Virus record (IMG/VR): IMGVR_UViG_3300037557_000128
Span: 1-64,000 of that record
Source: a virus
Direction: 5' to 3' (one strand)
DNA length: 64,000 bases
Below, in pieces: positions 1,095-53,760 of this stretch. Below the pieces are notes generated by a model. It was not told where the DNA came from, made no database searches, and saw nothing but the letters and a program-made list of their open reading frames with translations. The position numbers and the translations under genes are program-made. Within the stretch, counting starts at the first letter, position 1. Each line of letters opens with the position of its first letter.

Positions 1095-1370
1095 TTAATT
1101 TCCTGTTGCGACTTTATAATTAGTTTCAAGATTTGGTCTGACCTTGAAAATGGTCACTATTTGTTTTTTTGGTATCTTGTAGTTATATTCTCTTGCGAAC
1201 GGTAACCAAGGCGCAAGATTAATTTCCATTCTATCTTCAATTACTTGTTGCACACATAATTGTGCATCTTGTATTAGAACGGTATTACTAAAAAGGGTTT
1301 CAGTTACATATCCCATGATAACTTCACCACCTAAAAGTTTTATTGCCTTTATGTCTGTAGTACTAAACAC
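1095..1370 (-). CDS. Sm-like small beta-barrel protein, unknown function
   Basis: A 91-residue protein. Its opening pattern (IKLLGGEVIMGYV, then alternating hydrophobic strands and IPKKQIVTIFKV near the end) resembles the Sm1/Sm2 strands of LSm/Hfq-like barrels. The protein at 29137-29586 shares the layout IKLxxGxExxGxV, a central Pro-Phe/Tyr-Ala element and a closing beta pair, so the two look like distant paralogues. RNA binding is a fold-based guess only. It overlaps the lysozyme 3' end by 8 nt, implying translational coupling. Confidence 0.6.
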   Translation of the reverse strand: MFSTTDIKAIKLLGGEVIMGYVTETLFSNTVLIQDAQLCVQQVIEDRMEINLAPWLPFAREYNYKIPKKQIVTIFKVRPNLETNYKVATGN

Positions 1371-1818
1371 TTAATACTGATTCTTGTAATTCGATAGAAC
1401 GTCTACCAACTTGTTTAAACCAACGTGAGTCTTCCATTTCAACTGCCATTCTTTTCCAATCACCTTCAACAACTGCACTCCACATATTGTTGAATTTTCC
1501 GAAACGAGTTCCACCTAGATTGAATGTCATATTGACTAAACAATGTTGAATTTCTTCGGGTAGGTCATAAAAGTCTGAACCACCTTTTGATTCAAACACA
1601 TGAATTGTTTCTTCAACGTGTTTGTCAAAATCATATTCATAGACAGCGTCTACTCTTTCTTGTGAGACTGGTGTACCTACTGGTAATCCATGTTCGTCAT
1701 CACTATCTTTAATTAGATGTCCAACTCCAAAGGTTAAATATCCTAGTGAGTCTTCGTAGACCTCAAGGACTTCTCCTTCATGTCTCTTTATCTGTTCCTT
1801 TAATATCTCTTTGTTCAT
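1363..1818 (-). CDS. e: T4-type lysozyme (endolysin)
   Basis: A 151-residue muramidase of the T4 lysozyme family (T4 gpe is 164 residues). It would cleave the MurNAc-GlcNAc bond of peptidoglycan at lysis. The catalytic residues align as E14, D23 and T29, in RHEGEVLEVYEDSLGYLTFG, matching T4 E11, D20 and T26; the GVGH motif follows. The C-terminal helical lobe ends in SRWFKQVGRRS, as in the family. There is no signal peptide, so access to the cell wall needs a holin, and candidate small membrane proteins occur elsewhere in the window. It overlaps the upstream gene by 41 nt. Confidence 0.92.
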   Translation of the reverse strand: MNKEILKEQIKRHEGEVLEVYEDSLGYLTFGVGHLIKDSDDEHGLPVGTPVSQERVDAVYEYDFDKHVEETIHVFESKGGSDFYDLPEEIQHCLVNMTFNLGGTRFGKFNNMWSAVVEGDWKRMAVEMEDSRWFKQVGRRSIELQESVLSV

Positions 1819-2116
1819 TTTTTTCCTTTTCCACTTGATGTTCGATGAGTTCGACCAAAATGTCTCCCATCAGTTTGTTTAATTCCTCATTATTTAGTAA
1901 TTCTTCTAGGTATTCTTCACTAGGTTCTACTCCATTAGGAACTCTTCTAATTGTTCTTTGGAAGTTAAGATGAGGTTTGTCGTCTTCCATTTGCACTTCG
2001 CCGTACTGATACACTAGACCATCCCATTCACCACCCTGCAATTCTATACCTGCAGTTTTATCATCGGGGTTCTCTACTACTCTGTAGACCCCGTCATTAA
2101 ATAGTTCATCCGTCAT
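1778..2116 (-). CDS. Acidic hypothetical protein upstream of lysozyme
   Basis: A 112-residue acidic protein with no recognised domain. The N-terminal half is rich in predicted strands (GVYRVVENPDDKTAGIELQGG, WDGLVYQYGEVQM); the C-terminal third is a charged helix. It overlaps the methyltransferase-fold gene by 11 nt and lysozyme by 41 nt, so it belongs to the same translational unit. The function is unknown. Confidence 0.7.
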   Translation of the reverse strand: MTDELFNDGVYRVVENPDDKTAGIELQGGEWDGLVYQYGEVQMEDDKPHLNFQRTIRRVPNGVEPSEEYLEELLNNEELNKLMGDILVELIEHQVEKEKNEQRDIKGTDKET

Positions 2117-2756
2117 GGCAAAATGCGATATGGTTTTTACTATATCGTCCTAATCTCTTATATTGTTCAAATACATTACTGAATGAATGTTTTAATCCTT
2201 TAATGTAATGTTCATAATTTCTTTGGGTTACAAATGCATTGAAGGCAATATGACCCTTGTTAATCTTATTTAGGTTATCATAAAATTCTGTTGACCTGAA
2301 CTGTTCAGGTGTTCCACTTGGCCCAAATATATCAACAAAAATGTAATCGTACTGCGTGGTGCAGGTTTCTACGAACTCAAATGCATCACCAACAACACAA
2401 GTAATTCTATCGTCATTAGGCATATGGAAATAAGTTTCACCTATATGTCTCAGGTCAAATATATCAACACTAGTGATATTCATTTGTGTATTTCTATGTA
2501 AGTAAGACGGGATAACTCCACCACCAGTTCCTAAAACTAATGCACGTTGCGAAACTGTAGGTGTACTAGGAAGGTCATTGTAATTTAACACTTGAACTAT
2601 TTCTTTAGCGTAAGTCTTTTGTAGTTCATGAGGATATTTCTTCTTCAGTGAAGTTTGATTCAACTCACCGTTGAACTCTAAAATTACACACTGTTGAGTT
2701 TCTCTAACTGCAATCTCAACACCATTTACTATTTCTTTATATATTACTTCACTCAT
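2106..2756 (-). CDS. Spermidine-synthase-like (class I methyltransferase fold) protein
   Basis: About 216 residues from the ATG at 2756, which overlaps the previous stop in ATGAGTGA; a start at 2771 is possible but less likely. The core is a Rossmann methyltransferase fold of the SpeE type: a glycine-rich loop VLGTGGGVIPSYL, an acidic end of strand 2 in VDIFD, and GDAFEF followed by VDIFGPSGTPEQF and EFYDNL. SpeE proteins have D-S-x-D-P-x-G-P at the aminopropyl-transfer site; here the corresponding stretch is DIFGPSG, so polyamine synthesis is not assured. It could be a SAM-dependent enzyme acting with the two upstream coupled genes, possibly on DNA. Confidence 0.7.
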   Translation of the reverse strand: MSEVIYKEIVNGVEIAVRETQQCVILEFNGELNQTSLKKKYPHELQKTYAKEIVQVLNYNDLPSTPTVSQRALVLGTGGGVIPSYLHRNTQMNITSVDIFDLRHIGETYFHMPNDDRITCVVGDAFEFVETCTTQYDYIFVDIFGPSGTPEQFRSTEFYDNLNKINKGHIAFNAFVTQRNYEHYIKGLKHSFSNVFEQYKRLGRYSKNHIAFCHDG

Positions 2757-3795
2757 AAATTCTAACTCCAAATGAACTATCGTTCATAATTGCTTTGTGG
2801 ATTCCTAAAGACGCTTTTCTAGTCCCCATAGCTCCACCTGCAAATGTATCCACGACTTCTCGTTCCTGTAAATCTTTCATTGTTACATAGTGCATATACG
2901 CACCAATTCTTTTTCTAACCTCTTCAGGTACATCAACTTCTTCTTCATATACCATATGGTCAATAGACTTGTTTACTAATTGATACCCAATTTTCTCATT
3001 TACTAAAAGGTACACAATCAATCCTACAGGTACAGAACCATATTCAAACAAATAGTATTCAACTGAAGGGTCATTCCAATATTCATATTTGGTAATTGCA
3101 TCTGCCATTCCTTTGGATAACCACTTAGTTTTTTCAACGTCCCTCTTCCATTTTAAGAATGCATTGTTTATTTGTTCTACTGCAATATCAGGTTTGTTTA
3201 ATTTTCTATAAGCGACTTCAGGATTTTTTAGTAATCTATTAACACCCTTTTTGGTTCTCCACCTGTTATTCATTTTTTCCATGTTAGTATCAACATGAGA
3301 ATAATAGTTATAGGTTTCAAATTCAGTATCTAATTCTAATCCTTTCTTTTCTAACCATAATGATTCTTCTTCATTACCCAAGAATTTTTTACATACATTC
3401 TCTCTCAATGCATCGAATACTAATTCTTCATTTGCTAATGAACCACTTGCACTAATTGGTAATCCTTCAAGTCGTTTGTAAATGTGTTGGAACATTTGAA
3501 CGTGTTTCAATACTATGACGACTAAGTCTTCTCCAACACTTACTGTTGCAACTTTCCTTTGCCATTCATTTTTAATCTTGTGGTATTCATGAACGTATTC
3601 GGAAGGAAGTAATCCTTCGTGTCCATATCTCATACACCTTGTCTCTTGATAGAAGTCTATAAACTTTTTACTGGAAGGTTGTTTGAGATAGAAACACATA
3701 TCATTAAAGAATAATGAAGGGTCTACTGTTTTTAATGCCTCTATATCGATGCAGGGAATTGCCTCGAAAGGACTCAACTCATTCAAAAAATCCAT
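2749..3795 (-). CDS. Unknown protein coupled to the DNA methyltransferase
   Basis: A 348-residue protein that I do not recognise. It is mixed helical and basic in the middle (RTKKGVNRLLKNPEVAYRKL), with a hydrophobic strand region YYLFEYGSVPVGLIVYLLV and a C-terminal AGGAMGTRKASLG segment that faintly recalls acyl-transferase nucleotide loops. Its start overlaps the methyltransferase stop by 17 nt and its stop overlaps the spermidine-synthase-like gene by 8 nt, so the three are almost certainly co-translated. The most economical inference is a partner in DNA base modification; this is inferred from context, not seen. Confidence 0.6.
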   Translation of the reverse strand: MDFLNELSPFEAIPCIDIEALKTVDPSLFFNDMCFYLKQPSSKKFIDFYQETRCMRYGHEGLLPSEYVHEYHKIKNEWQRKVATVSVGEDLVVIVLKHVQMFQHIYKRLEGLPISASGSLANEELVFDALRENVCKKFLGNEEESLWLEKKGLELDTEFETYNYYSHVDTNMEKMNNRWRTKKGVNRLLKNPEVAYRKLNKPDIAVEQINNAFLKWKRDVEKTKWLSKGMADAITKYEYWNDPSVEYYLFEYGSVPVGLIVYLLVNEKIGYQLVNKSIDHMVYEEEVDVPEEVRKRIGAYMHYVTMKDLQEREVVDTFAGGAMGTRKASLGIHKAIMNDSSFGVRIYE

Positions 3796-5143
3796 CTAGT
3801 GTACTCACTCTTGCATCTTTAAAAAAATCACGAGCAACACCTTTTGAGAAACACCAAATATTTTCAATATAGTATTTCTTCATGAACTCGTCCATTGCAG
3901 CTTTATCAAAGTCTCCATTCTCATCTTTGAATACAGATTTACCTTGAGGTCTTTGCATGATTCTCATTCCTATTTGACCGTCAAAGTATTCTTCACCAAC
4001 GTGTCTGATAACTTCGTCTCCCGACCTGTATCTAACTCCATGTATTTTTGGGTCAAGAATGTTAATGTACAAGACTCCACTATTTGCAAGTGATTCAAAT
4101 GATTTCTTTGCTACTGGTAAATAGAACTCGTCTCTCCACGCATTATACTCGTTAAACTTTGCCCAAGATTGGTCTTGTTCATGTTCACCACCTTCGTTGT
4201 ATCTCTCTGTTGAAAAATAAGGTGGAGAAGTGAATGCACAATCGATTGGTGGAAGTTGATGGTATTTCATATCCTCTGCACCACAACGATGTATCTCAAC
4301 TTTCTTTGACCCAATACATGAGAAGTAATCTTCCTGTTCAATTATGTCGGGTTCTTCACCTGTAAGAATTCGTTCATAAAATATACATTGTTTCTTATAA
4401 CGTTCAAATGTTGCAGGGTTTGGGTCACAACCTATGTACTCTTTAGTGTAATTCCCTGCATAAAAACCACATAGTCTGTCACCCCAACCACAAGAAGTAT
4501 CAAGTATTGTTTCACTCCTAGTGTTGTCATAGATAGATTTTGCAACAAGTGGTTTGAACTGCGTTGCAATGTATGTTCCCAATCTGAATGCAGAAATGTA
4601 AGACTTTTCATCCAACTTTCCACCCATGAGTTCTTCCTTTCCTTCAACCTGTACTTTTTGTACACCATTGATTCCTCTCCAAATAGGCCCTAAACATCTC
4701 CAAATTTCTTTAGAGGTTCCTTCTTCCCAAACTTTTACTGGTGGTTGGAAACCATAACTTCCACACGCAAGTCTTAAATCTTGGTGAAAGAAGTTTGATG
4801 CATCAGAATGATTAGATGCACAATCTATTAAACCTAATCCCCAAGAATGAAAGTCAAAAGTATAATCGTCATACTTTTCCATGACTTCTTGTTGTAGGTT
4901 ATCGGTAGGTGTGATACAGTTTGAAGTATCATAATCTTTTAATGCAAGAAACATTTCACGCATTCTTTCATATGATATTTCTTTGAAAGGAAATGGTGGT
5001 CTGGTTTCTGCAATAAAATCTGCTACTGCAAGACGAAATTCTTCCTTACCATATTCTTTGGTAGTCTTATCAAAAAGGTTGCCGTCTAATATAGGTAACC
5101 CATTTGAATTGACATTATCGGATAGAATTTGTTTTAGGGACAT
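3779..5143 (-). CDS. Putative DNA amino-methyltransferase (TSPPY motif)
   Basis: A 454-residue protein. The C-terminal half carries amino-methyltransferase features: a SAM-binding stretch DTSCGWGDR at about 215-223, GCDPNP at 238-243, and the catalytic motif TSPPY at 305-309. TSPPY-type motifs are typical of exocyclic N4-cytosine or N6-adenine DNA methyltransferases. The first 200 residues form an unrecognised extra domain, perhaps for target recognition. No restriction enzyme lies beside it, so protection of phage DNA or hypermodification is likelier than a restriction-modification role. It starts in TAATG overlapping the peroxiredoxin stop and is followed by two coupled genes. Confidence 0.8.
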   Translation of the reverse strand: MSLKQILSDNVNSNGLPILDGNLFDKTTKEYGKEEFRLAVADFIAETRPPFPFKEISYERMREMFLALKDYDTSNCITPTDNLQQEVMEKYDDYTFDFHSWGLGLIDCASNHSDASNFFHQDLRLACGSYGFQPPVKVWEEGTSKEIWRCLGPIWRGINGVQKVQVEGKEELMGGKLDEKSYISAFRLGTYIATQFKPLVAKSIYDNTRSETILDTSCGWGDRLCGFYAGNYTKEYIGCDPNPATFERYKKQCIFYERILTGEEPDIIEQEDYFSCIGSKKVEIHRCGAEDMKYHQLPPIDCAFTSPPYFSTERYNEGGEHEQDQSWAKFNEYNAWRDEFYLPVAKKSFESLANSGVLYINILDPKIHGVRYRSGDEVIRHVGEEYFDGQIGMRIMQRPQGKSVFKDENGDFDKAAMDEFMKKYYIENIWCFSKGVARDFFKDARVSTLDGFFE

Positions 5144-5688
5144 TATTGAGGATTGTTTCCAAGATATTCCATTACAGTTTCTGCGTTAGATACTAAAAAT
5201 GGGTCTGATTCAATGTTGTCTTGAAATCCTTCTTCAATAAACATTTTCTCAACTTTACCATCATTAATTATAGCTGCGTATCTCCAAGACCTCATACCAA
5301 ATCCTAGATTTGATTTTTTGACTTCTGCACCAAACTTATGTGTGAACTCTCCATTTCCATCGGGAAGGAAAGTTATATCTGTTTCTCCAAAAGACTCTTT
5401 CCACTCATTCATAACAAAAGTGTCATTCACTGAAATACAGTAAATTCCGTCAATCTGTAATGATTGGAATTTTTTAAAATTTTCCTGAAAACCAGGCACT
5501 TGTTGGGTACTGCAAGTTGGTGTAAATGCACCAGGCAATCCAAATATGATTACTCTCTTACCTGCAAATTCTTCTGTAGTGTTGATATTACCCCACTCTC
5601 CGTCTACACGAACTGGGAAATCAACATTAGGAACTTCTTGACCTACGTCAATAGGCAGTCCCATAATTGCGTTATTGTCACTCGACAT
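5143..5688 (-). CDS. Peroxiredoxin, Prx5/type II class
   Basis: A 181-residue thiol peroxidase. The active-site motif PGAFTPTCS places the peroxidatic cysteine at C59; a second cysteine at C84 is the only other one and could be the resolving thiol. The length and the late FGMRSWRYAAIINDG segment fit the Prx5-like AhpC/TSA family. It would reduce peroxides in the cytoplasm using host thiols. A GGAG site precedes the ATG at 5688. It is first in the run leading to DNA polymerase and has its own TTACAG-N17-TATAAT promoter. A phage-borne peroxiredoxin would be an auxiliary gene against oxidative damage during infection. Confidence 0.88.
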   Translation of the reverse strand: MSSDNNAIMGLPIDVGQEVPNVDFPVRVDGEWGNINTTEEFAGKRVIIFGLPGAFTPTCSTQQVPGFQENFKKFQSLQIDGIYCISVNDTFVMNEWKESFGETDITFLPDGNGEFTHKFGAEVKKSNLGFGMRSWRYAAIINDGKVEKMFIEEGFQDNIESDPFLVSNAETVMEYLGNNPQ

Positions 5689-6533: not shown

Positions 6534-8420
6534 TCAAGGGGTTTTCTTTAATTTTCTTAATTCTTTATTAATTAGTGGTGCATATATCTTAACTGGAATC
6601 TCTTTTCCTTTAACATTTATCTCGTCAAGATACTGCCATTCACAATCAACCTGTTTCTTTGTGAACTCTGACATTAGAATAGGTGTATCATATGTTCTAG
6701 TTTGCACTTCAAGTCGAGCTGCAAGGTTAACTGCATCTCCGACAACTGAATAATCGAATCGTTCTTCTGACCCCATATTGCCCACGATACACTGACCAGT
6801 GTTAATTCCAGTGCCTATGACTACTGGTGGTAAATCTAATCCTTCTCTTTCTAACTCTACATTCATTTGTTCTGTTAACAGTTCTATTTCTATTGCAGAA
6901 TCTAAAGCCCTTTGTGCGTGGTCAGGACAATCTAAAGGAGCTCCCCACCATGCCATCAAACAGTCGCCCATATACTTATCAATGGTTCCACCATTTGCGA
7001 GTACTATTTTTGACATACCGTCTAGGAATCTATTGATTAATAACACTAGACCTTCAGGGTCGTCATTCTTCATATAAGCTTCGCTTATAGGGGTGAACCC
7101 AACTATATCTGCAAATAAGAATGAAAGTTCCTTTCTATCTCCACCTAATTTCAATTTTTCGGGGTGTTTTTGCAGTTCTTCAATCATGTCAGGCGATAAA
7201 TATTTTTGGAACTGCTTCTTTATTTGTTGCTTTTCTTGAAAGGTAACATAGTATTTGTTGAAAGATGCATGACCAAACACAATCAAGGAGGCCAAAGATG
7301 AAAAGAAGGTATCGAAAAGAACGAGACTTGAAGACCAAATATAGAAACTCCCACCCACCTGAAGTACTACGAGTCCTAGAGAAAATGTCCCCGAAAGAGC
7401 TGTGGGAAGCTTATAAACCATTACCAACACAATTAATAGAACTGACAGAAGAAGAACAATTTCTACGAATTCAAGAAAGTAGGATTGCTTTATTTGAATT
7501 CCTGTCAAGGCGGTTTGTATCAGATTCGCTTGTACTTCGTGAGGATACATTGTACCCATTGGGGTTGAAACTGGATTGTTCCATCCTTCAGCGGTTACCC
7601 CAAACACAAGAATAGCGTTTTCAGGTAATTCATCAGTGAAGGAATAACGTTTAAACTTGTTCCAATAACTTATCATTAAATCACCTTGAGGTGTTGTGGA
7701 TATGGGTTGTTGTCTTCCGACTCTGACCCATTCTACTCCAACCTCTTCAGTGACTTTCATTTGGTAAGATTTTTCGTCATTAAAAGCACGTAACACTTCA
7801 ATTGCAAGTGAGGGATATATTTGTCCGTTCGCTTGCATGAGTAATGGTGCAGAACGTATGGTTCCATCGAAGTTTGGAGTACCCGAAATACTAGGAGTTG
7901 CAGTAGTTACCCCTACTCCATAGGTGTTTCCCTCTAGTACAGGAATGGGGCTGAGCACCCCTGGCGTCCCCCACACTGCGTTTTTAGCGTCTCCTGACCC
8001 CAAAGTACTAGTTCCGACAAAGGGAGATGACCCTTTTTGGGTCTGAATTGTGGGTGCTGACGATAAAATGGACAATCTATTGACCAAAGCAGTCGCAAAT
8101 TCCTCGTCTCCACCGAATCTATCGACCTCTGAGAACACTTGCGTGAACACATAAGTGTTAGACCAGTGTGATTCCAGTAGTTTATCTGCGTATATTTTGC
8201 GTGGGAATGGTAATTGTCCGAACTCTTCTACTGACTTTTCGTCAATATCGACCAAAACAATTTCGGGAAGTCCTGATTCGGAATCGTACTCTTGAACACT
8301 ATGTGTGCTATGTAAGTAGTCAAACCACGACCATGAGATGTTCTCTATGAAGTATGGGTTCCAAATTTTAAGTCCAAATAATAACCCTATCGTGACTAAT
8401 ACGGTTTTCCAAGAGTACAT
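6534..8420 (-). CDS. CHASE2-domain class III adenylate/guanylate cyclase, membrane-bound
   Basis: A 628-residue membrane receptor cyclase. Order: N-terminal membrane anchor (residues ~5-22); a periplasmic CHASE2 sensor (~40-305, with EIVLVDIDEKSVEEFGQLPFPR and DGTIRSAPLL); three membrane helices (~315-395); a short linker; and a class III cyclase domain (~430-610). The cyclase keeps the metal aspartates in FADIVGFTP and YMGDCLMAW, and the transition-state Asn/Arg in YSVVGDAVNLAARLE, so it should be active, making cAMP (or cGMP). CHASE2 cyclases often sit beside FecR proteins in bacteria, and a FecR gene lies three genes upstream here. It starts in a TAATG overlap at the end of the curli-like operon. 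I know of few phage receptor cyclases. Confidence 0.92.
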   Translation of the reverse strand: MYSWKTVLVTIGLLFGLKIWNPYFIENISWSWFDYLHSTHSVQEYDSESGLPEIVLVDIDEKSVEEFGQLPFPRKIYADKLLESHWSNTYVFTQVFSEVDRFGGDEEFATALVNRLSILSSAPTIQTQKGSSPFVGTSTLGSGDAKNAVWGTPGVLSPIPVLEGNTYGVGVTTATPSISGTPNFDGTIRSAPLLMQANGQIYPSLAIEVLRAFNDEKSYQMKVTEEVGVEWVRVGRQQPISTTPQGDLMISYWNKFKRYSFTDELPENAILVFGVTAEGWNNPVSTPMGTMYPHEVQANLIQTALTGIQIKQSYFLEFVEIVLLLSVLLIVLVMVYKLPTALSGTFSLGLVVLQVGGSFYIWSSSLVLFDTFFSSLASLIVFGHASFNKYYVTFQEKQQIKKQFQKYLSPDMIEELQKHPEKLKLGGDRKELSFLFADIVGFTPISEAYMKNDDPEGLVLLINRFLDGMSKIVLANGGTIDKYMGDCLMAWWGAPLDCPDHAQRALDSAIEIELLTEQMNVELEREGLDLPPVVIGTGINTGQCIVGNMGSEERFDYSVVGDAVNLAARLEVQTRTYDTPILMSEFTKKQVDCEWQYLDEINVKGKEIPVKIYAPLINKELRKLKKTP

Positions 8421-8575
8421 TATTCAATAGTTGGCCATGCAAAGAAAAATATGTATAAACATATTCCTATCAATGCAAGTGCTAGCAATCCTGAAGTTAC
8501 CCCTGACCAAAACTTTTTCTTTTCTGACTTACGGTAATCTTGGATAAAATCGTCTATCCTTTCTTTACTACTCAT
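8420..8575 (-). CDS. Small single-span membrane protein
   Basis: 51 residues from the ATG at 8575: a charged N-terminal helix (KERIDDFIQDYRKSEKKKFW), then one transmembrane segment (TSGLLALALIGICLYIFFF). It overlaps the upstream gene by 4 nt (ATGA) and the cyclase by 1 nt, so it is an integral part of the operon. It could be an accessory subunit of the cyclase or secretion complex; its function is unknown. Confidence 0.7.
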   Translation of the reverse strand: MSSKERIDDFIQDYRKSEKKKFWSGVTSGLLALALIGICLYIFFFAWPTIE

Positions 8576-8841
8576 GAAAATTTCTTCTGTATTTTTTTGT
8601 ACATATAGTATATAGATAGTCCATAGAATGCAAGTACGGACATTGAGATTCCGATATAGAACAATTCTACTGGGGATAAGAAAAGGACATTCCAAACAAA
8701 GTTAGCTGCAGCTTCACCGTCACCTAATGGTGCAAGTGATTCAGGCATTTCTAATTCATTATCTTCTAGAAGTGTGACCCACTCTTCATATTCGGTTTCA
8801 CTGAGACAATGATAATACTCTTCGGGACAGTCTACTTCCAT
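8572..8841 (-). CDS. Small acidic membrane protein
   Basis: 89 residues. The N-terminal 45 residues are strongly acidic (ETEYEEWVTLLEDNELEMPE); one or two membrane segments follow (NVLFLSPVELFYIGI, MSVLAFYGLSIYYMY), then a basic tail KKIQKKFS. The positive-inside rule puts the acidic head outside and the tail in the cytoplasm. It lies between the second curlin-like gene and the cyclase, with a 4-nt overlap to the next gene. No family is recognised. Confidence 0.7.
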   Translation of the reverse strand: MEVDCPEEYYHCLSETEYEEWVTLLEDNELEMPESLAPLGDGEAAANFVWNVLFLSPVELFYIGISMSVLAFYGLSIYYMYKKIQKKFS

Positions 8842-8899
8842 TTGATTACCCTACCTAGACACCATTCTAAGAATCGTATTGCTTTCGCTTTTATGCTCA

Positions 8900-9736
8900 T
8901 TAGTTTTGCGTGACACTTACTGTACAGCCACCTGATGTTTGACAATTTTGAGACAACGTATAATTTTGAGTTGTATTGGAATGTTGTGAAATATTAAGTG
9001 TGGTTGGATAATTTCCGTTTATGGTAATGTTTGAGTTGTGTTCACCATTTCCGTCTTGTAAGTAATCAACGGTATTACCATCGTTATTAATGGTTAAATA
9101 AAATTCTTTTGTACCATCTGCTTTTTGTTTACCGAAAACAGAATTGTTATCACCATAAAGATAGATTTTTGCTTTATGACCATCACAAGCACCAGTTGCA
9201 CAATTTCTTTGTTGTCCTACAACTGTATTATTATTACCGTGAATATCTACAGTAACCCAATGACCACCACCTTCAGTGTTATCCTTTGCCCAAGATGTAT
9301 CAGTTCTACTTGAAATTTCAAATCCTTGAGCCCACCAAAGCTTATTATTTGTTCCATATGAAATATGAAACTGAATATCATTAGTGTTACAATCATCACC
9401 TTTTGTACAGTTCTGCCAAAGTTTTACATCTTGGTCATCGTGGTCTATATCACCACCCCAACCTGCACCTGATCCCCATGTAACAATATCATCTGCCCAA
9501 CCTATTTCTTGATTGTTTCCAACTTGATATATATCTATTGAAGAATCATCAATATCACCTATAGAAAAGAATACACGATTATCATAACCTTCCTGCGTGA
9601 TACTGAGGTCAAGATTAGTTGAGGCTGTGACTTGATTTATGGCAATAGTGTTATCATCACCACCAAATGCCTTAAATGATAATCCTAGACAAAGGAGTGC
9701 CACTGCACCTGTTAATAACTTCGCACCTAAATCCAT
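8900..9736 (-). CDS. Secreted curlin-like repeat protein (second copy)
   Basis: About 278 residues from the ATG at 9736; an upstream TTG at 9757 is less likely. A signal peptide (LLTGAVALLCLGLSFKAFG) is followed by strand-turn repeats rich in N, D, G and Q, such as NTIAINQVTAST, LDLSITQEGYDNRV, SIDIYQVGNNQ and HGNNNTVVGQQ, which resemble curlin Nx5QxGxxN units. Cysteine pairs (CTKGDDC, CATGAC, CQTSGGC) recur at loops and suggest disulfides after export. It probably is a CsgG/CsgF-exported beta-solenoid or amyloid-like subunit. It differs from E. coli CsgA in length and spacing, so the curlin label rests on pattern and neighbours. Confidence 0.7.
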   Translation of the reverse strand: MDLGAKLLTGAVALLCLGLSFKAFGGDDNTIAINQVTASTNLDLSITQEGYDNRVFFSIGDIDDSSIDIYQVGNNQEIGWADDIVTWGSGAGWGGDIDHDDQDVKLWQNCTKGDDCNTNDIQFHISYGTNNKLWWAQGFEISSRTDTSWAKDNTEGGGHWVTVDIHGNNNTVVGQQRNCATGACDGHKAKIYLYGDNNSVFGKQKADGTKEFYLTINNDGNTVDYLQDGNGEHNSNITINGNYPTTLNISQHSNTTQNYTLSQNCQTSGGCTVSVTQN

Positions 9737-9737
9737 A

Positions 9738-9887
9738 TTAACCACACAACCATACAAATAATAGAGTAAGGACTACTCCTTCTGCGAATGAAATCCACAT
9801 CATCCAATAATCGTCTAGTCTCAGAGCTTTTTGAAATCCAAAGATTTGAGTTTCATGCCATGAGCGGAACTTTTCTAGTATATTCAT
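9738..9887 (-). CDS. 49-residue single-span membrane protein
   Basis: A short gene found by translating between the FecR gene and the second curlin-like gene. AGGAG precedes the ATG at 9887 by 6 nt and the TAA ends 2 nt before the next ATG. The N-terminus is amphipathic (NILEKFRSWHETQIFGFQKAL), then a transmembrane helix (MWISFAEGVVLTLLFVWL). It fits the operon without a gap, which supports it being real. Function unknown. Confidence 0.65.
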   Translation of the reverse strand: MNILEKFRSWHETQIFGFQKALRLDDYWMMWISFAEGVVLTLLFVWLCG

Positions 9888-9895
9888 ATATTCTC

Positions 9896-11029
9896 CTAGT
9901 TTGTTTGTGTAATGGTAATATTTATAGACGAACCATCACCCACCACGATATGTGACTCTTTTTCGTCTGTTATAGTTCTAATATCTGCTTGTGCAAACAT
10001 GGGAATCCTGATTGAAATAATTCCATTCACTTCCCTGTATAACCATATTTGACCAAGACCCTTATCTATAATTGTATTATATTGAGAGTCTTTGTCGAAA
10101 CCTGCAGAAGTACCCGATAATCGAACACTTCCGAATTTTGCACGTTCTCTATCTATACCCACTTTTTTGTCAATGTCTAATACAATATCGAGTAAATCTT
10201 GTAAAAAATCAATGTCGAGTAAATCTCTATCTAGCTCTGTATATTCCAGCTCATCATCTTCAAAGTAGTCCGTTTCCAAATCATTGAACTCTAAGAAGTC
10301 TACATCTAGAATATTATTCGCATCATTTTCTCCACCACCTGATTCTTCTGAAACTTGGTCAGAAACCTCATCAGGTGGACTGACAATGAACATATTATCA
10401 ATCATTCCAATGTTTACACCATTAACCGTTACTGGTTTTGTTGGTGAATCATCATAAGTCGACACCATAGTTGCTTGGTATGCTTCATTCATAGTTACTG
10501 AACCACCTGCATTTGATACTATAATGATTCCTGAAGGTGAACCCCATTTATCTGGCAAAAGCATAACAAGTGAGCGTCCTAATTCATCAATACTTGTGGT
10601 GAAATCTGTGCCTCTGACTGCAATTGTGGCAGTAGGTGTCCTAATTTCAATATTTGCTTTTTTAATTTTTCCACCAAATCCCGAAGCAAATCGAGCGGTG
10701 CCTTGTGCCATTCTTAATGACATTTTTGATAGACTTGGGTCGGGGTCATAATAAACCTCGTCTATCCAAACTTTAGAATGTTCTGTTAATGAAAGTTCTT
10801 CTTCGCCTTCGAACTTTATTTTCATTCTCCCATTCTGAGTTTGTGCAGTATCGTACATTAATACATCAGGATTTTCTGATGCCAATAGGACGGTGTTATC
10901 ACCGTCTCTTGTAAGACCTGCGTAACCTTTTTCCTCAATGATTTCACCAATCGAGTCAGCATTAACCAACCCGACTGATAAAATACTAAGAATCGTTATC
11001 GTCTTTTTGAACGATGTCAATATTTCCAT
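9896..11029 (-). CDS. FecR-domain secreted protein
   Basis: 377 residues. A signal peptide (ITILSILSVGLVNA) is followed by a FecR-type beta domain at ~25-170: ENPDVLMYD, LTEHSKVWIDEVYYD, the hallmark MAQGTARFASG, and TPTATIAVRGTDF. A very acidic linker (~225-285, rich in DLLDIDFL) follows, and then a C-terminal beta region ending SINITITQTN, which resembles a curlin-type strand. FecR proteins are periplasmic regulators or surface-associated modules and are often encoded next to CHASE2 cyclases. It may link the secreted fibre to the cyclase sensor. It overlaps the preceding curlin-like gene by 44 nt. Confidence 0.82.
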   Translation of the reverse strand: MEILTSFKKTITILSILSVGLVNADSIGEIIEEKGYAGLTRDGDNTVLLASENPDVLMYDTAQTQNGRMKIKFEGEEELSLTEHSKVWIDEVYYDPDPSLSKMSLRMAQGTARFASGFGGKIKKANIEIRTPTATIAVRGTDFTTSIDELGRSLVMLLPDKWGSPSGIIIVSNAGGSVTMNEAYQATMVSTYDDSPTKPVTVNGVNIGMIDNMFIVSPPDEVSDQVSEESGGGENDANNILDVDFLEFNDLETDYFEDDELEYTELDRDLLDIDFLQDLLDIVLDIDKKVGIDRERAKFGSVRLSGTSAGFDKDSQYNTIIDKGLGQIWLYREVNGIISIRIPMFAQADIRTITDEKESHIVVGDGSSINITITQTN

Positions 11030-11720
11030 TAGTAGTCACGAAAGTTACGTCAATAATACCACTACAAGATTGACCACTTGGACAACCTGTATCTGAACCT
11101 GATTTCTGAATGATGTCTATATCATTTCCTGAACCAGTTAAGACTGCAGTAATACTATTATCGGTTGCATCTAATTGATTGGTGTTAATGTCGTTTGTTG
11201 AACCTGTAACAGTCCAGTTCCAAACAGCATTATCTGAGTTAACTTTAGTTGTAAATATATTACTTGAACCACCAACTACTAAATCGTAGTTTAAGTATTC
11301 AGCTGAAGCTGCGTCACCAATATCAATATTCCATGTATTAGAATCACCAGTAACAGCACTTAACATATTTAAACTGTCAGCACTATTTTGACCAATGTTC
11401 CAGTCCATTGAGTTTGAATTTCCAGTGAAGGTAAGGTTTATCGTTGCTGAGTCAGCAATCATAGGCCCAAATAATTTGTTAGTGTCTCCATATTGGATAA
11501 GTGTAAAATTATTCGATGCACCAGTCAAAACCATGTCTATGGAAGTGCCTGCGAAGTTATCGCCGCCAACTTTGTTTCCATAACCTTTCTGCGTGAAATT
11601 CAATACAAGTGCTGTACCTGATTGATTTAACCAAATTTCGTTATCGTCTGCTCCTGCGAATACTGTGGCAGGTAGTAGACCTAATGTTAACATAATGAGT
11701 GAAATAAATTTATTCTTCAT
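10986..11720 (-). CDS. Secreted curlin-like protein (CsgA/B-like)
   Basis: 244 residues. A clear signal peptide (KFISLIMLTLGLLPATVFA) is followed by imperfect strand-turn repeats: NEIWLNQSGTA, LVLNFTQKGYGNKV, NFTLIQYGDTNKLF, DIDIIQKSGSD and NIDIVQKDDNDS. These N/Q-ladder repeats match the curlin pattern and begin just after the predicted cleavage site. It lies between csgG and the FecR gene, so it is the most likely main export substrate. The middle repeats are degenerate (TGSTNDINTNQLD), so the fibre may differ from bacterial curli. It starts inside the csgG 3' end (11-nt overlap). Confidence 0.75.
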   Translation of the reverse strand: MKNKFISLIMLTLGLLPATVFAGADDNEIWLNQSGTALVLNFTQKGYGNKVGGDNFAGTSIDMVLTGASNNFTLIQYGDTNKLFGPMIADSATINLTFTGNSNSMDWNIGQNSADSLNMLSAVTGDSNTWNIDIGDAASAEYLNYDLVVGGSSNIFTTKVNSDNAVWNWTVTGSTNDINTNQLDATDNSITAVLTGSGNDIDIIQKSGSDTGCPSGQSCSGIIDVTFVTTNGNIDIVQKDDNDS

Positions 11721-12642
11721 TTGTTTTTTCCTCTGTAACTAAGACGATTTCATTTTCATCTAAAAAGTCTGACACTTCCTCTTTTATTTTTGATTCAGTT
11801 ATCGGCCATTTTATTTTCCAAAATCCTCTTTCATCACCTTGATAGATTAATTCTAGGACGGCAAGTTCGATTGCAGAACGAGTCGCTTTCGTAACCCCTT
11901 CATTAGTTGCTACGCCATCCTCAATTTCCACTAATTTTGTGTCCATGTCCACAAAACGGAATACATCGTACCCACCACCAGTCGATAAAATAGTCTTGGT
12001 AGTTTGTACATTAAGTAAAATTTCACCAGTAAGTGTTGATATTCCTCTCAAACTTACCGTGACCACATCTCTTCTATATTGGCTTGAAGCACCGATACCT
12101 AAGTATCTTGCGCCTCGGCCACCCGATTCAATGTTAGTATCATAACCAACAATCCCACCGTCAAGTAGGATTCCTGCGAACAAGAGAGGTTGGATACCCG
12201 TAGGTGAATCCTCATTACCTTCTTGATTCGCAAAATCTTCTCTCGCAGAACGAACAATTTGCCTTTCTCTTACAAGTGCATCTAAACTTGTACGTTCTAC
12301 TACTCTAAACCATTTTCCTTGTCCTGCAGTTTTAAGTGCATCAATAAGAAATGATTCACCACCCTGTGTCACTGCAGTTGAGAAAGATGCAATTCCATCT
12401 TTGCTCTTACGTTGTCCTGTTTTATCTAGGAAACCGTAAACTGCAACAATAGGCATATTTTCTGCAGGTGGTAATTCCAACAATTCCATATGTGTAGGAA
12501 GTTTAACTGATTCTGCAGGTTCGATACAAGTTCCTATCTTGTTCATAATTGCAGTACTGCAAGTGTCATTGACACTTGGTACGCTTGCACACCCAGTCGT
12601 GAGCAAGACCACTATCAGTCCTACAAACCCTAACGTCTTCAT
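11710..12642 (-). CDS. csgG: CsgG-type curli secretion channel lipoprotein
   Basis: 310 residues, homologous across its length to CsgG (277 residues in E. coli), the outer-membrane nonameric channel of type VIII secretion. The lipoprotein signal ends at C18 (VVLLTTGC). Conserved blocks include IVAVYGFLDKTGQ, SFSTAVTQGGESFLIDAL, WFRVVERTSLDALVRERQI, the strand region SGGRGARYLGIGASSQY, LTGEILLNVQTTKTILS and FRFVDMD. At the constriction E. coli Y51/N55/F56 align with D82/S86/F87, so the aromatic ring is kept at F only. About 30 extra residues follow the lipid cysteine. It sits directly after csgF, with no csgE or csgD. Confidence 0.93.
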   Translation of the reverse strand: MKTLGFVGLIVVLLTTGCASVPSVNDTCSTAIMNKIGTCIEPAESVKLPTHMELLELPPAENMPIVAVYGFLDKTGQRKSKDGIASFSTAVTQGGESFLIDALKTAGQGKWFRVVERTSLDALVRERQIVRSAREDFANQEGNEDSPTGIQPLLFAGILLDGGIVGYDTNIESGGRGARYLGIGASSQYRRDVVTVSLRGISTLTGEILLNVQTTKTILSTGGGYDVFRFVDMDTKLVEIEDGVATNEGVTKATRSAIELAVLELIYQGDERGFWKIKWPITESKIKEEVSDFLDENEIVLVTEEKTNEE

Positions 12643-13128
12643 TTAAAAACTACCAGTACCTACAGGTATATCTAATGTTGTTGTTGTTCCATCTGAAGAA
12701 ACTATGGTCAAACGAATAAATTCTACTCCGTCCTCTCCAACTAGTTTTTCATATGTAACCGTATTTCCTTCAATGGTGAACACTCCAAAATCAGAAGCTT
12801 CACCGTTAGAGAACATATTCTCTACTAACTGTTTTGCAATTTGGGCATAAATTCTACTCTCAACATTTCTTAAAAATTTTGCTAGCGTTGTATTCGAAGC
12901 TTCTCTTTCTGCCTTTGAGAGTGCATCTTTTACGTCTTGTTCAATTTTATCACGTCTTGATTTCTGTTGATTCTCGATTGTCAAATAATGCGAACTTTGT
13001 CCAACTCCACTGAAACTTGGACTCTTAAATTTATGCACTATTTCATCTGCTTCGACTTGCGATGCAAAAAATGTAATCAGTATTACCCAACTGACAAATA
13101 ATAATTCTCTATCTTTTTTTAGTTTCAT
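12643..13128 (-). CDS. csgF: CsgF-type curli assembly protein
   Basis: About 161 residues from the ATG at 13128 (GGGCGG upstream); an ATG at 13149 would add seven residues. After a signal peptide (LLFVSWVILITFFASQVEA) comes the family N-terminus HKFKSPSFSG, the part that plugs CsgG, then the LTIENQ segment, a helical middle (NVESRIYAQIAKQLVENMF) and a C-terminal beta sheet ending TLDIPVG. CsgF is secreted, binds the mouth of CsgG and couples the nucleator to the cell surface. It is immediately upstream of csgG with no spacer. Similarity looks closest to alphaproteobacterial-style CsgF. Confidence 0.9.
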   Translation of the reverse strand: MKLKKDRELLFVSWVILITFFASQVEADEIVHKFKSPSFSGVGQSSHYLTIENQQKSRRDKIEQDVKDALSKAEREASNTTLAKFLRNVESRIYAQIAKQLVENMFSNGEASDFGVFTIEGNTVTYEKLVGEDGVEFIRLTIVSSDGTTTTLDIPVGTGSF

Positions 13129-13378
13129 TTCCGCCCTTCTTCTTATCATTCTCTTTCATTTCGAGGACTACGTTTACCTTTTGCTGTAAACGAATTAAAT
13201 CTTGGTCTAACATTCTCACTTGATCGATAAGTTTTATCAGTGCAAAATGTTGTTTCTCCACTTCGGGTTCGAGGTTTTCACCAACAAACCACCAAACATA
13301 ATATACAAAATAACCCAGTCCTACCATCATTACAATAGGGAACCCATAGTCGTTTATAAGTTGTGCCACTCCTTCCAT
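13109..13378 (-). CDS. Small membrane protein with coiled coil
   Basis: 89 residues: one transmembrane segment (GFPIVMMVGLGYFVYYVWWFV) followed by a charged helix with heptads (IKLIDQVRMLDQDLIRLQQKVNVVL) and a basic tail. It ends inside csgF and starts right after the next upstream gene, so it is in the same operon. The topology resembles the gene just upstream and the one at 46894-47154. It could be a holin-like or secretion-accessory protein; no family is certain. Confidence 0.65.
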   Translation of the reverse strand: MEGVAQLINDYGFPIVMMVGLGYFVYYVWWFVGENLEPEVEKQHFALIKLIDQVRMLDQDLIRLQQKVNVVLEMKENDKKKGGNETKKR

Positions 13379-22401: not shown

Positions 22402-23004
22402 TTAATTTTCGTTGCGAATTGAGATTTTGTCTATTTCTAGGTTGTTGGTGCGTTGATCTGAAGAAATCATATCAGGGTTTTCAGTGAACCACATTGCGAT
22501 TGTGTGTCTGGCACATCTTCGAACTGGATATACTCCATGAGAATGATATAATCCTTGAAATAGGATTCCTTCACACGCAGTAGGTTTGTGTATATAATCT
22601 TGGTCGGGAAAATAGGTCTCTCCACTACCATAATTAGAATTAAGTGTTAATATAAGTGTCCATTCACGACTTGGTTTCTCTTCTTTTTGGTCGTGGTTTA
22701 TTTCTGCATTTGAGTAAGTGTCTAAGTGTGGCTCTTGAAGACCACCAATATCCCACTCATTGAGTGCTGACATTTCGGGATATACTACTTGGTCTGTTTC
22801 TTTATAAATTTCTGCGACACTTCGATATGCAATTCTATTGAATATATCTCTAACCCATTGGGTTTGAATGTGTATTAGGTCTATTGCACGGTAATCTGAA
22901 CCGTCTCCAATACTACGCTTGTGCTTGTGTGTCTGATGATAATACATCAGATTGTTCGCTTCCTGACTCGACACTAAGTTCTGAATCGGAATTAGATTGA
23001 ACAT
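22402..23004 (-). CDS. 2OG-Fe(II) oxygenase (prolyl-4-hydroxylase-like)
   Basis: About 200 residues from the ATG at 23004; an ATG at 23040 is also open. The double-stranded beta-helix ligands are visible: HLD at 93-95, a distal histidine in GLYHSHG (154 or 156), and an arginine for 2-oxoglutarate in RHTIAMWF (166). It would hydroxylate a protein or small molecule using Fe(II), O2 and 2-oxoglutarate. The 5' end overlaps peptide deformylase by about 90 nt, a large overlap. One of about six such proteins in the window. Confidence 0.8.
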   Translation of the reverse strand: MFNLIPIQNLVSSQEANNLMYYHQTHKHKRSIGDGSDYRAIDLIHIQTQWVRDIFNRIAYRSVAEIYKETDQVVYPEMSALNEWDIGGLQEPHLDTYSNAEINHDQKEEKPSREWTLILTLNSNYGSGETYFPDQDYIHKPTACEGILFQGLYHSHGVYPVRRCARHTIAMWFTENPDMISSDQRTNNLEIDKISIRNEN

Positions 23005-23539
23005 TTTGGATGTATTTTGCAAGTGCTTGTCTTTTTTCATACTCTATTCGTTTCCGTCTTTCTTTTGGACGTGATTTCAATGCACGTTCTAATTTCATTT
23101 TTGATGCACGTTGGAGAAATACTATTCCATTCAAATGGTCTATTTCATGTTGAACACATCTTGCACCTAATCCGTCAAGTGAAGTTATGTGTTCTTTTCC
23201 GTCTGCATCGAAGTATTTCATTTCTACTACTTTACTTCTCTTTATCATAAGGTATATATCGGGGAATGATAAACACCCTTCTTTGAGTAGGTCTGTTTCT
23301 TGTGAAATTCTAGTGAGTTCAGGATTGAAAAATCCTTGTATGCCGTCTTGGGTTCTCATTACAAACATTCTGACATCTACCCCAACTTGATTTGCACTTA
23401 GTCCAAGACCACCAAATTTTTTCATCGCTTCTGAGAGGTCTTTTTCTACTTCTTTTGGGTCGTGAGTTGGGTTTTCAAAATCAAACTCCAACGGTGGGGT
23501 TCTTAAAACCTTAGCGGCTTCTTTTACTAATTGATACAT
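22913..23539 (-). CDS. def: Peptide deformylase
   Basis: 208 residues. Removes the N-formyl group from nascent proteins. All three motifs are present: GLGLSANQVG (I), EGCLSFP (II) and QHEIDHLNG (III, the metal-binding HExxH). A charged C-terminal extension (RPKERRKRIEYEKRQALAKY plus a Ser-rich tail) is beyond the usual ~170 residues and overlaps the following oxygenase. Peptide deformylases are known from marine T4-like phages. Confidence 0.95.
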   Translation of the reverse strand: MYQLVKEAAKVLRTPPLEFDFENPTHDPKEVEKDLSEAMKKFGGLGLSANQVGVDVRMFVMRTQDGIQGFFNPELTRISQETDLLKEGCLSFPDIYLMIKRSKVVEMKYFDADGKEHITSLDGLGARCVQHEIDHLNGIVFLQRASKMKLERALKSRPKERRKRIEYEKRQALAKYIQNVQSNSDSELSVESGSEQSDVLSSDTQAQA

Positions 23540-51345: not shown

Positions 51346-52866
51346 TTATTGCGTGGAGTCATAGAGGTTTTTGTACTTGTTGTATACTTCAAGATTATTT
51401 ATAGAGTCAAAATTCATATCATTTATCCAAGGCCCGCCCCTAGTGTAATGAATCCCAGTGTAATCCCACTTCTCTTCAGGGTTGTCATAACCTTCGACAA
51501 ATATATATTTTTGAGGTATTTCAGATATTGCATTAGTCCATTCGAACTGATGTAGTTGTTTTCCTGTCCAAGTGTTCACAACTTCAGGTGTTAACTTCTT
51601 ACAGTCCTCATGACTGTTGTTGAAAAACATCATTGAAGACCACAATTTACATGGATAATCTATGTTTACTTCTCCATTGAACTTAGACTCGTCATGTTTA
51701 TATTGTGGGTATTTGATACACGCAACTGCATCATCAGGATTTAGATAATAGAACATAGGTAGTAATGACTTCTTAAATATAAAATCGTTATCCACAAATA
51801 GACTAAACCCTTCATAGTTCTCTAAGTGTGGTATAAGAAATCTACTGTATGTAAATTCAGTACTTTGATTTGCGTACTCCCTATTATAATCGGGAAGTTT
51901 AGAAATGTCAAGCAATTTAATGGTTGGACTAAATCTAGTGTACTCTTGAAACTCACCCAGTGAATGTGCATCTGAGATTGTTTGTGTGATTGACTTTTCA
52001 CACACTTTCTCTAAATCATTCATTGTACTATCATAACCGATATAAACGGTTAGTGGTTTACCTGCAGAAAGTTTATGAACCTTTTTATTAAACTTAAAGA
52101 CATCATCTCTAAATCCAAGTTCTGCTAAATCTGTTTGCCATTCTATCACACCCCGACATAGTTGGAATGCAATATTTTTATGTCTTCCTCTTTTGTCTAG
52201 TTTATCGCCCCAATACTCTAATACTTCATCAAGTGTTGTACTTGGAAAATCTGAGAGTTGTCCAGTCTTATCCCATATCATACACTCCATATCGTCATTT
52301 TCCATTTCTTCAAATACGCAAGAACGAACAGAGCCTGGGTGGATTGTTAATTGAATTAGGTCATCAACTGGATTTGTTGTATAACCTTGAATTGGTGCCC
52401 AAAGTCCTTCTTCTTGAATACTTTGAGTTAACCAGTGTGCTTTTGCACTATGGTAATAACAAGAACCTACTACTTCTTTTACTCTTGGGTCTTCTTTATG
52501 AGACGGTCTAACATTTACAACAGTATCTAAAATGTTAACTTCTTCATCTTCTTTTTGGAATCCGAATCCTGCGTGATTTCCCACCATGTTTAAACTAGAA
52601 TAACCATGAGGAAGATACCTATGATAATAATTAGACTTATCTAATAGACCATTAAAACTCATGAATCTTTTTTCTTTTCTTAATTGAAGTGTATCACCCC
52701 ATTTAAAGATTTTAAGTGGTGGAAGAATTTCTTCAAACAACCACTGTATGATTTTATATGATTCTTTATCTGTTTCACCAATATTAAGGGAACCTAAATG
52801 TAAGGCGTCCATAGTTTCTTTGGTGATAAGAGATTGAGCTTGCTCTAGTGTAGTAATTTTTTCCAT
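51346..52866 (-). CDS. GT8-like glycosyltransferase with extra N-terminal domain
   Basis: 506 residues. The C-terminal half (about 265-500) is a GT-A transferase of GT8 style: LTVYIGYDSTM start, metal motif FSLFVDNDF, and the closing IHYTRGGPW, like the GT8 HxxxGxxKPW. The N-terminal 260 residues are unrecognised (SFNGLLDKSNYYHRYLPHG; IHPGSVRSCVFEEM). It may glycosylate virion fibres or host surface glycans. Behind an ACTAAATA box with an AGGATTAT leader, so late. Directly downstream of the repeat fibre genes. Confidence 0.75.
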   Translation of the reverse strand: MEKITTLEQAQSLITKETMDALHLGSLNIGETDKESYKIIQWLFEEILPPLKIFKWGDTLQLRKEKRFMSFNGLLDKSNYYHRYLPHGYSSLNMVGNHAGFGFQKEDEEVNILDTVVNVRPSHKEDPRVKEVVGSCYYHSAKAHWLTQSIQEEGLWAPIQGYTTNPVDDLIQLTIHPGSVRSCVFEEMENDDMECMIWDKTGQLSDFPSTTLDEVLEYWGDKLDKRGRHKNIAFQLCRGVIEWQTDLAELGFRDDVFKFNKKVHKLSAGKPLTVYIGYDSTMNDLEKVCEKSITQTISDAHSLGEFQEYTRFSPTIKLLDISKLPDYNREYANQSTEFTYSRFLIPHLENYEGFSLFVDNDFIFKKSLLPMFYYLNPDDAVACIKYPQYKHDESKFNGEVNIDYPCKLWSSMMFFNNSHEDCKKLTPEVVNTWTGKQLHQFEWTNAISEIPQKYIFVEGYDNPEEKWDYTGIHYTRGGPWINDMNFDSINNLEVYNKYKNLYDSTQ

Positions 52867-52883
52867 AATATAATCCTTTTCAA

Positions 52884-52891
52884 TATTTAGT
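52884..52891 (-). promoter_or_regulatory. Late-type box ACTAAATA before the glycosyltransferase
   Basis: Minus-strand ACTAAATATTG 17 nt before the 52866 ATG, between it and the repeat-protein stop. Confidence 0.55.
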
Positions 52892-52899
52892 TACAAGAA

Positions 52900-53760
52900 T
52901 TAACTTGTAACTGGTGTAGCAGGCCATTGTTGAGATAGTGTACTATCCCACCTAATGACTGGTGTTCTACCTTGTCGGGCATAAGTTCCAGGCGTCCTAT
53001 GTTGATATGTGAACGGTGTCTGACCTTGTCTTGCATATGTGCCAGGCGTTCTATGTTGATAAGTCGTTGGTGTTTGACCTTGTCTAGCATATGTACTTGG
53101 TGTTCTATGTTGATAGGTAAATGGTGTTTGACCTTGTCTCGCATATGTGCCAGGCGTTCTATGTTGATATGTAGTAGGTGTTTGACCTTGTCTAGCATAT
53201 GTGCCAGGCTGTCTGTTTTGATATGTAGTAGGTGTCTGACCTTGTCTAGCATACGTTCCTGGCTGCCTATTACTATATGTAAATGGAGTCTGTCCTTGTC
53301 TCGCATATGTTGTAGGTTGACTAGCAATATATGGATATGGATTTTGTCTATTCGCAATATAAGGTTGTTGTCCAGCTACAGGATTCCTATAGGTAAATGG
53401 ACTCCTATTATTATATGTGAACGGACTCTGACTATTACTAGGTTGTCTTGCGTTCGCAGGATACCTTGCGTTATATGTGAATGGACTCTGACTATTACTA
53501 GGAGACTGTCCATTAGCAGGATACCTTGCGTTATATGTGAACGGTTGTCTCGCATTACTAGGAGACTGAGCATTCGCAGGATACCTTGCGTTATAGGTAT
53601 ACGGAGTCCTTGCGTTATAGGTAAATGGACTCTGACTATTACTAGGAGACTGTCCATTAGCAGGATACCTTGCGTTATAAGTTCCAGGCTGCCTAGCTGA
53701 AGCAATGGCAGGTTGCTGGGTATTAGCGATTACTGGTTGTTGTGCTTGTCCGATTGCCAT
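52900..53760 (-). CDS. Pro/Tyr/Gln-rich repeat fibre-like protein
   Basis: 286 residues built almost wholly of short repeats. The first half uses units such as QSPFTYNARYPANA; the second half is an 18-residue double unit RQPGTYARQGQTPTTYQH repeated about six times. Every unit has a Pro about two or three residues before a Tyr, and Arg/Gln between. No signal peptide, no hydrophobic core; an extended fibre or adhesive is likely. It starts exactly at the stop of the Hint-domain fibre gene (1-nt overlap) with the same repeat type. The short C-terminal end (IRWDSTLSQQWPATP) may be a tip. Confidence 0.7.
   Translation of the reverse strand: MAIGQAQQPVIANTQQPAIASARQPGTYNARYPANGQSPSNSQSPFTYNARTPYTYNARYPANAQSPSNARQPFTYNARYPANGQSPSNSQSPFTYNARYPANARQPSNSQSPFTYNNRSPFTYRNPVAGQQPYIANRQNPYPYIASQPTTYARQGQTPFTYSNRQPGTYARQGQTPTTYQNRQPGTYARQGQTPTTYQHRTPGTYARQGQTPFTYQHRTPSTYARQGQTPTTYQHRTPGTYARQGQTPFTYQHRTPGTYARQGRTPVIRWDSTLSQQWPATPVTS
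52970..53700 (-). repeat. Coding tandem repeats in the repeat fibre gene
   Basis: DNA-level repeats of about 54 bp (two 27-bp half-units, e.g. CAAACACC and CATATG(C/T) spaced regularly) from 52970 to about 53330, and a looser 45-63 bp repeat from 53400 to 53700. Synonymous differences between copies show they are old or actively shuffled by recombination. Confidence 0.75.

Follow-up and report, generated by a model that had tools for sequence, protein, structure and literature searches.

Three adjoining genes of a marine T4-like phage, encoding a DNA amino-methyltransferase (MT), a 348-residue protein and an enzyme resembling the spermidine synthase SpeE, form a conserved unit that stays together across two genomic sites. 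We tentatively read this cassette as a tailoring version of an MT-centred DNA modification locus of marine T4-like phages, an interpretation whose chances we place a little below even. The genes lie on the minus strand of the window, the stretch of 64 000 nucleotides (nt) analysed here (positions 1–64 000 of IMG/VR record IMGVR_UViG_3300037557_000128). The window is part of a linear virus record of 79 348 bases that is possibly a fragment, and absences within the record are weak evidence. The terminase is 56% identical to that of phage C48C1 and then about 46% identical to those of cyanophages. The hosts are probably SAR11 bacteria, which are among the most abundant bacteria of the ocean.

The MT (454 amino acids, aa) is encoded at 3779–5143, the 348-aa protein at 2749–3795 and the SpeE-like enzyme at 2106–2771 if translation begins at a TTG, or at 2106–2756 from a conserved internal ATG, which is the probable start. 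A first reading of the letters alone (the sequence-only reading) had described three overlapping minus-strand open reading frames (ORFs), and their coordinates and the TSPPY motif of the MT are confirmed. Between the MT and 348-aa genes the overlap is 17 nt; between the 348-aa and SpeE-like genes it is 8 nt when the ATG is the start and 23 nt when the TTG is. Such overlap was rejected as a sign of coupling: it is ordinary in this phage genome, being present in 30 of the 67 pairs of same-strand neighbours in the window, and the run of overlaps extends into the flanking genes on both sides. All three ORFs are genuine, conserved genes that evolve under purifying selection, with ratios of non-synonymous to synonymous substitution (dN/dS) of 0.11–0.19 for the MT and 348-aa genes in all five pairs with close relatives, and of 0.12–0.43 for the SpeE-like gene in such pairs.

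A search with the 348-aa protein identified 17 IMG/VR loci, with an MT upstream and a SpeE-like gene downstream wherever the contig is long enough. Two more loci, L051 and L056, were obtained by a pattern search with the conserved C-terminal block of this protein; there, identity to the window is 58% for the 348-aa protein, 43% for the MT and 37% for the SpeE-like protein, the gene of which is frame-broken in the L051 contig and intact in L056. The complete trio, in the order MT, 348-aa gene, SpeE-like gene, is present in all 15 loci with enough flank. It occupies two unrelated sites, one between hsp20 and peroxiredoxin (prx) on one side and u112 and lysozyme on the other, and one, that of L051 and L056, between gp44 (clamp loader) and gp62/regA. 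The co-occurrence that the sequence-only reading had proposed as a check holds in one direction. The 348-aa gene was never found without an MT in the loci examined, whereas the 348-aa and SpeE-like genes are both absent from all 71 of the nearest non-cassette MT loci, counted among the best 80 of at least 558 related stretches that a scan of IMG/VR with the MT family (divergent MT added) revealed; HMMER and blastp may miss very divergent GNATs in such MT-only loci. Between the window and locus L006, the MT is 95% identical and the DNA polymerase 70% (window 2749–5143 versus 1–862), a gap which suggests recombination spreading the MT end of the cassette.

The MT is a member of the DNA amino-methyltransferase family. 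It scores 28.7 bits on PF01555 (N6_N4_Mtase) against a cut-off of 26.7 (the MT of L051, with 20.2 bits, is below it) and carries the S-adenosylmethionine (SAM) motif LDTSCGWGDRL at residues 214–224, followed by the catalytic TSPPY at 305–309. It presumably acts on an exocyclic amine of adenine or cytosine in phage DNA. The N-terminal part of about 190 aa, previously regarded as a large unknown domain, is conserved across the family; relatives match almost the full length of the MT, so this domain belongs to the family and is a standard part of a large group of phage MTs. Homology of this domain to the distant MTs of DAC16, Alsa and huge phages was considered and rejected as not significant. 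The MT recurs in three places: between prx (preceded by hsp20) and u112–lysozyme, between gp44 and gp62/regA, and between DNA polymerase and UvsX.

The 348-aa protein has no sequence match in Pfam, PHROG, NCBIfam or PDB. No relatives were found by tblastn among 50 697 phage records, nor in bacterial genomes by pattern scans, a method that reaches close relatives only. Described earlier as an unknown, it is now predicted to be a tandem GNAT: in an AlphaFold2 model based on 12 sequences (pLDDT 67, pTM 0.57), two successive GNAT-type folds are seen. The pLDDT of a first model was 56 and rose to 67 when the L051 sequence was added. With this model Foldseek places FemX at the top (E 1.8e-6), followed in turn by a double-GNAT structure of B. 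theta, by MprF, by Sba18/Sbb17 and by further tandem GNATs. In VIA-align, Z is 11.4 for Sba18 and 10.9 for 2hqy, within a range of 9.9–11.4 for FemABX types; many generic GNATs reach 9.5–10.7, near these values, and VipF and MshD, two generic tandem GNATs, come close to the FemABX types in score. On the model, a GNAT fold is likely and a link to aminoacyl-tRNA is a lead only. The predicted double-GNAT architecture would be shared with the aminoacyl-tRNA-dependent transferases FemABX, MprF and Sba18, the top neighbours in both comparisons; the 348-aa protein differs from them in having no sequence-level family match, and its use of tRNA and of a catalytic Lys is hypothetical. The candidate residue is K334, which is invariant and lies in the last predicted helix, where model confidence is below 50; it could correspond to the catalytic Lys305 of FemX (PMC12945691).

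A further comparison concerns Mom of phage Mu (PF25680), also a GNAT-type phage protein proposed to act on DNA. The 348-aa protein is longer and has two predicted GNAT folds. Membership in the Mom family was rejected: there is no match to the Mom Pfam model at E<=1, and hhalign against Mu Mom gives a probability of 0.3%, while Mu Mom itself, used as a control, scores 253 bits.

The SpeE-like protein matches the Spermine_synth domain (33.6 bits, cut-off 22.9) but is far under the equivalog cut-offs, with 69 bits versus 304 for PRK04457, the best-scoring curated model, 41.6 versus 260 for PRK00811 and 36.9 versus 249.6 for speE. It resembles SpeE and the PRK04457 or 'fused MFS/spermidine synthase' branch in its domain match, its catalytic Asp and its nearest curated model. 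In spermidine synthases three Asp are catalytic or substrate-binding (PMC10146546). An Asp in their glycine-rich loop keeps SAM out in favour of the decarboxylated form (PMC1282579) and holds the aminopropyl group (PMC1282579, PMC10146546). In our alignment all 10 phage homologues have Gly in place of this loop Asp (D88 of E. coli SpeE), which is also missing, as Gly or Ala, in five relatives: gp040 of the cultured SAR11 myophage HTVC008M, annotated 'spermidine synthase-like protein', and four bacterial proteins belonging to the same branch. At the second gate position, whose Asp anchors the amine, nine of the ten phage homologues have Gly or Asn; the protein of the window has Gly, and L015 alone keeps Asp. 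The catalytic Asp after strand 4 (E. coli D158) is kept in all aligned SpeE-like proteins.

The sequence-only reading had proposed that an aminopropyl or other group might be transferred to DNA, noting that SpeE-like enzymes take aminopropyl groups from decarboxylated SAM, and that the altered gate of this enzyme suggests a new acceptor. The Spermine_synth match and the retained catalytic Asp speak for such an aminopropyltransferase; the replaced loop Asp and the lost second gate Asp speak against it, as do the absence of any SpeD (AdoMet_dc) found in the 79-kb record and the polyamine route described for SAR11, which passes through homospermidine synthase (PMC9992855). We reject it on the residues and consider it very improbable. 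Because the branch lacks the Asp that excludes SAM, the SpeE-like protein is more likely an ordinary SAM-dependent methyltransferase. Since the loop Asp is missing in bacterial relatives as well, the change of gate marks the bacterial SpeE-like branch to which the protein belongs; it is neither special to the phage nor the mark of a new acceptor. The annotation 'spermidine synthase' in such phages is unlikely to mean polyamine synthesis.

The place directly behind the MT is a variable slot. In part of the loci it holds one of three recognisable modules, each beginning with a gene that overlaps or adjoins the stop codon of the MT. Module A, the predicted tandem GNAT with the SpeE-like methyltransferase, occupies 13 loci at the prx–lysozyme site and two at the gp44–gp62 site. 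Module B consists of an Asp/Asn beta-hydroxylase (PF05118, 55.7 bits) and a single-domain GNAT (L086 2670–3663; L113 3417–4317). It is present at seven loci of the prx–lysozyme site (L086–L092) and two of the gp44–gp62 site (L113 and L129, the latter counted although its contig stops inside the hydroxylase), and its GNAT has no relative among the 50 697 phage records. Module C is a pyridoxal phosphate (PLP) fold-II enzyme (PF00291), found at one locus of the prx–lysozyme site (L108 5343–6176) and two of the gp44–gp62 site (L137 9326–10162; L150 3836–4717). The remaining slots hold an unknown 133-aa gene (n = 3), a DUF6445 protein (n = 1), nothing recognised (n = 52) or the contig end (n = 3). 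Several contigs are near-copies, and the informative number is the six combinations of module and site.

The slot of the window is bordered upstream by a peroxiredoxin gene (5143–5688, minus strand; PF08534, 98.5 bits), which forms the same border in related loci. Downstream are a 112-aa ORF (1778–2116, minus strand; phrog_3998, function unassigned), which stands directly behind the MT where the module is absent, and a lysozyme-like endolysin gene (1363–1818, minus strand; PF00959, 39 bits), also seen in related loci.

The MT trees cluster by site and not by module. A tree in which the MTs of one module form one clade is rejected for module B (p-AU 1e-102) and module C (p-AU 6.6e-5), and weakly for module A (p-AU 0.03, long branch). 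The modules have therefore changed MT partners while keeping the same place behind the MT, and each of the three is present at both sites, where the MTs ahead of it are from different clades. An unchanging DNA MT followed by exchangeable enzymes of acyl transfer, hydroxylation, amino-acid (PLP) chemistry and methylation fits a locus that decorates DNA in different ways. Of the base-modification pathway put forward in the sequence-only reading, the general proposal remains plausible, sustained by the conserved trio at two sites and by the alternative tailoring-type enzymes in the slot, and the aminopropyl chemistry is not supported.

Relatives of the PLP enzyme (phrog_3650) are present in 344 phage records, including many from phages of Salmonella, Klebsiella, Dickeya and Serratia. 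Among these records is that of CRW-SP2, a phage of the Ackermannviridae, a family with hypermodified thymidine (PMC11721090); any tie to that pathway would be speculative.

In the reading that we favour, the MT would be the constant enzyme, encoded beside replication genes, and the module behind it the exchangeable part, which in this phage pairs a tandem-GNAT transferase with a SpeE-like methyltransferase that uses SAM. The likeliest course is that the GNAT would add an acyl or aminoacyl group to the base recognised or pre-modified by the MT, and the SpeE-like enzyme would then methylate the added group. A narrower version, quite unlikely in our estimate, is that the tandem GNAT takes an amino acid from aminoacyl-tRNA and attaches it to a base amine of phage DNA, and that the SpeE-like enzyme methylates it. 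If so, a tRNA-dependent aminoacylated base would be one of several alternative end groups at the same MT-defined site in marine phages.

The slot can also be explained in another manner. The MT would be a plain DNA methyltransferase, its conserved 3' end a recombination hot spot within a variable region, and the GNAT and SpeE-like pair a separate module that acylates or aminoacylates, and then N-methylates, a protein, a lipid or a small molecule. Such substrates are known for both folds: GNATs of the FemX/MprF/Sba18 type modify precursors of peptidoglycan as well as lipids and small molecules (PMC12945691, PMC2922099), and the C-domain of METTL13, a distant relative of spermidine synthase, is a protein N-terminal methyltransferase (PMC6109062). 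The MT alone is the common state, and SpeE-like genes are found in other pelagimyophage settings with neither MT nor GNAT. HTVC008M gp040, although a related protein, has no such partner, and the related 55-kb pelagimyophage contig L034 encodes a 443-aa protein (1351–2682, minus strand) in which an N-terminus like that of 2-oxoglutarate (2OG)-Fe(II) oxygenases is fused to a SpeE-like methyltransferase domain. Against this explanation, every 348-aa gene found lies directly behind an MT of one family, at two sites and down to 43% MT identity, and three different modules choose the same slot at both sites. We regard it as possible, if rather doubtful.

These SpeE-like genes with neither MT nor GNAT and the prevalence of MTs without partners also weigh against the DNA modification locus that we favour. 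Because the MT usually stands alone, its product may be plain N4-methylcytosine or N6-methyladenine, and the conserved MT 3' ends may be no more than a seam at which recombination gathers cargo. Conservation, gene order, co-occurrence, the swapping of modules at two sites and the loss of the residue that selects decarboxylated SAM are shown, and the GNAT fold is predicted; DNA as the substrate, the modified base, the order of the steps, the nature of the transferred group and the biological role are what we infer. The benefit of modification is also hard to see, restriction–modification being described in one of more than 100 SAR11 genomes only (PMC7029224). A simple anti-restriction role is doubtful because SAR11 genomes rarely carry such systems; other defences or effects on transcription are possible.

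The same scarcity of restriction–modification in SAR11 (PMC7029224) would suit another reading, in which the cassette acts against host defence or changes the translation or envelope of the host, the MT serving as decoy or regulator, and DNA is not covalently hypermodified; phages are known to use GNATs on host proteins, for example Rac (PMC7552054). We consider this unlikely. The 348-aa gene has no PADLOC match, and the match of the SpeE-like part to mad2 is unspecific; DNA chemistry better accounts for module swapping behind a DNA MT near replication genes. Identity of the SpeE-like protein with mad2 of the MADS defence was rejected, since only positions 293–385 of the 492 in the profile are matched and the model responds in all 14 control genomes. 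Neighbouring genes were also checked for ParB: gp041 of HTVC008M matches ParB_N weakly (E 0.0066), and the 336-aa neighbour in L051 gives no match.

The starting points of the phage DNA hypermodifications known so far are mostly 5-hydroxymethyl pyrimidines or, as a recent addition, carboxymethylcytosine. The closest parallel to the DNA modification locus proposed here is the CmoX/CmoY system of Synechococcus phage S-B43, in which the DNA MT homologue CmoX installs a carboxymethyl handle and the neighbouring CmoY ligates glycine to it (PMC12783734). Both cases involve a marine phage and a DNA MT homologue with adjoining tailoring enzymes, which are replaced by other partners in other phages (PMC12783734). 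However, CmoX is a C5-cytosine enzyme using carboxy-SAM (Cx-SAM) from CmoA, whereas the MT described here is of the amino type: it matches N6_N4_Mtase and no C5 MT model in Pfam, and no match to CmoA (TIGR00740) was found in the 79-kb record. The tailoring enzyme is a predicted GNAT here and an ATP-dependent ligase there. The cassette may point to a manner of decorating the DNA of phages that has yet to be described. If the proposal is correct, a constant amino-methyltransferase combined with exchangeable GNAT, hydroxylase, PLP or SAM enzymes would constitute a different architecture of hypermodification, and phages differing in the module alone should differ in one nucleoside.

The record encodes a curli operon and 2OG oxygenases, and by inspection a peptide deformylase-like ORF is present at 22913–23539; all three are described in SAR11 pelagimyophages (PMC7029224). 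In the window (6534–13149, minus strand), a protein with CHASE2 and adenylate/guanylate cyclase domains (PF05226, 102 bits; PF00211, 64 bits) adjoins a cluster of FecR, CsgG, CsgF and weak curlin repeats. The curli operon being already known in these phages (PMC7029224), the neighbouring cyclase is the noteworthy part; by inspection, a CHASE2/cyclase-like ORF is likewise close to the MT site in L089.

At 47–52 kb, in a run made up of 2OG oxygenases and, by inspection, an ATP-grasp-like ORF, lies the gene of a 506-aa protein (51346–52866, minus strand) with a GT8-like C-terminal part and an N-terminal half without assignment. The protein encoded at 53760–55211 (minus strand) is rich in repeats and ends in a Hint/intein-like domain, for which several Pfam models of the Hint type match (best E ~1e-7); its PY/IANxQ repeats recur in other proteins at 52887–53760, at 62544–63260 and just past the end of the window.

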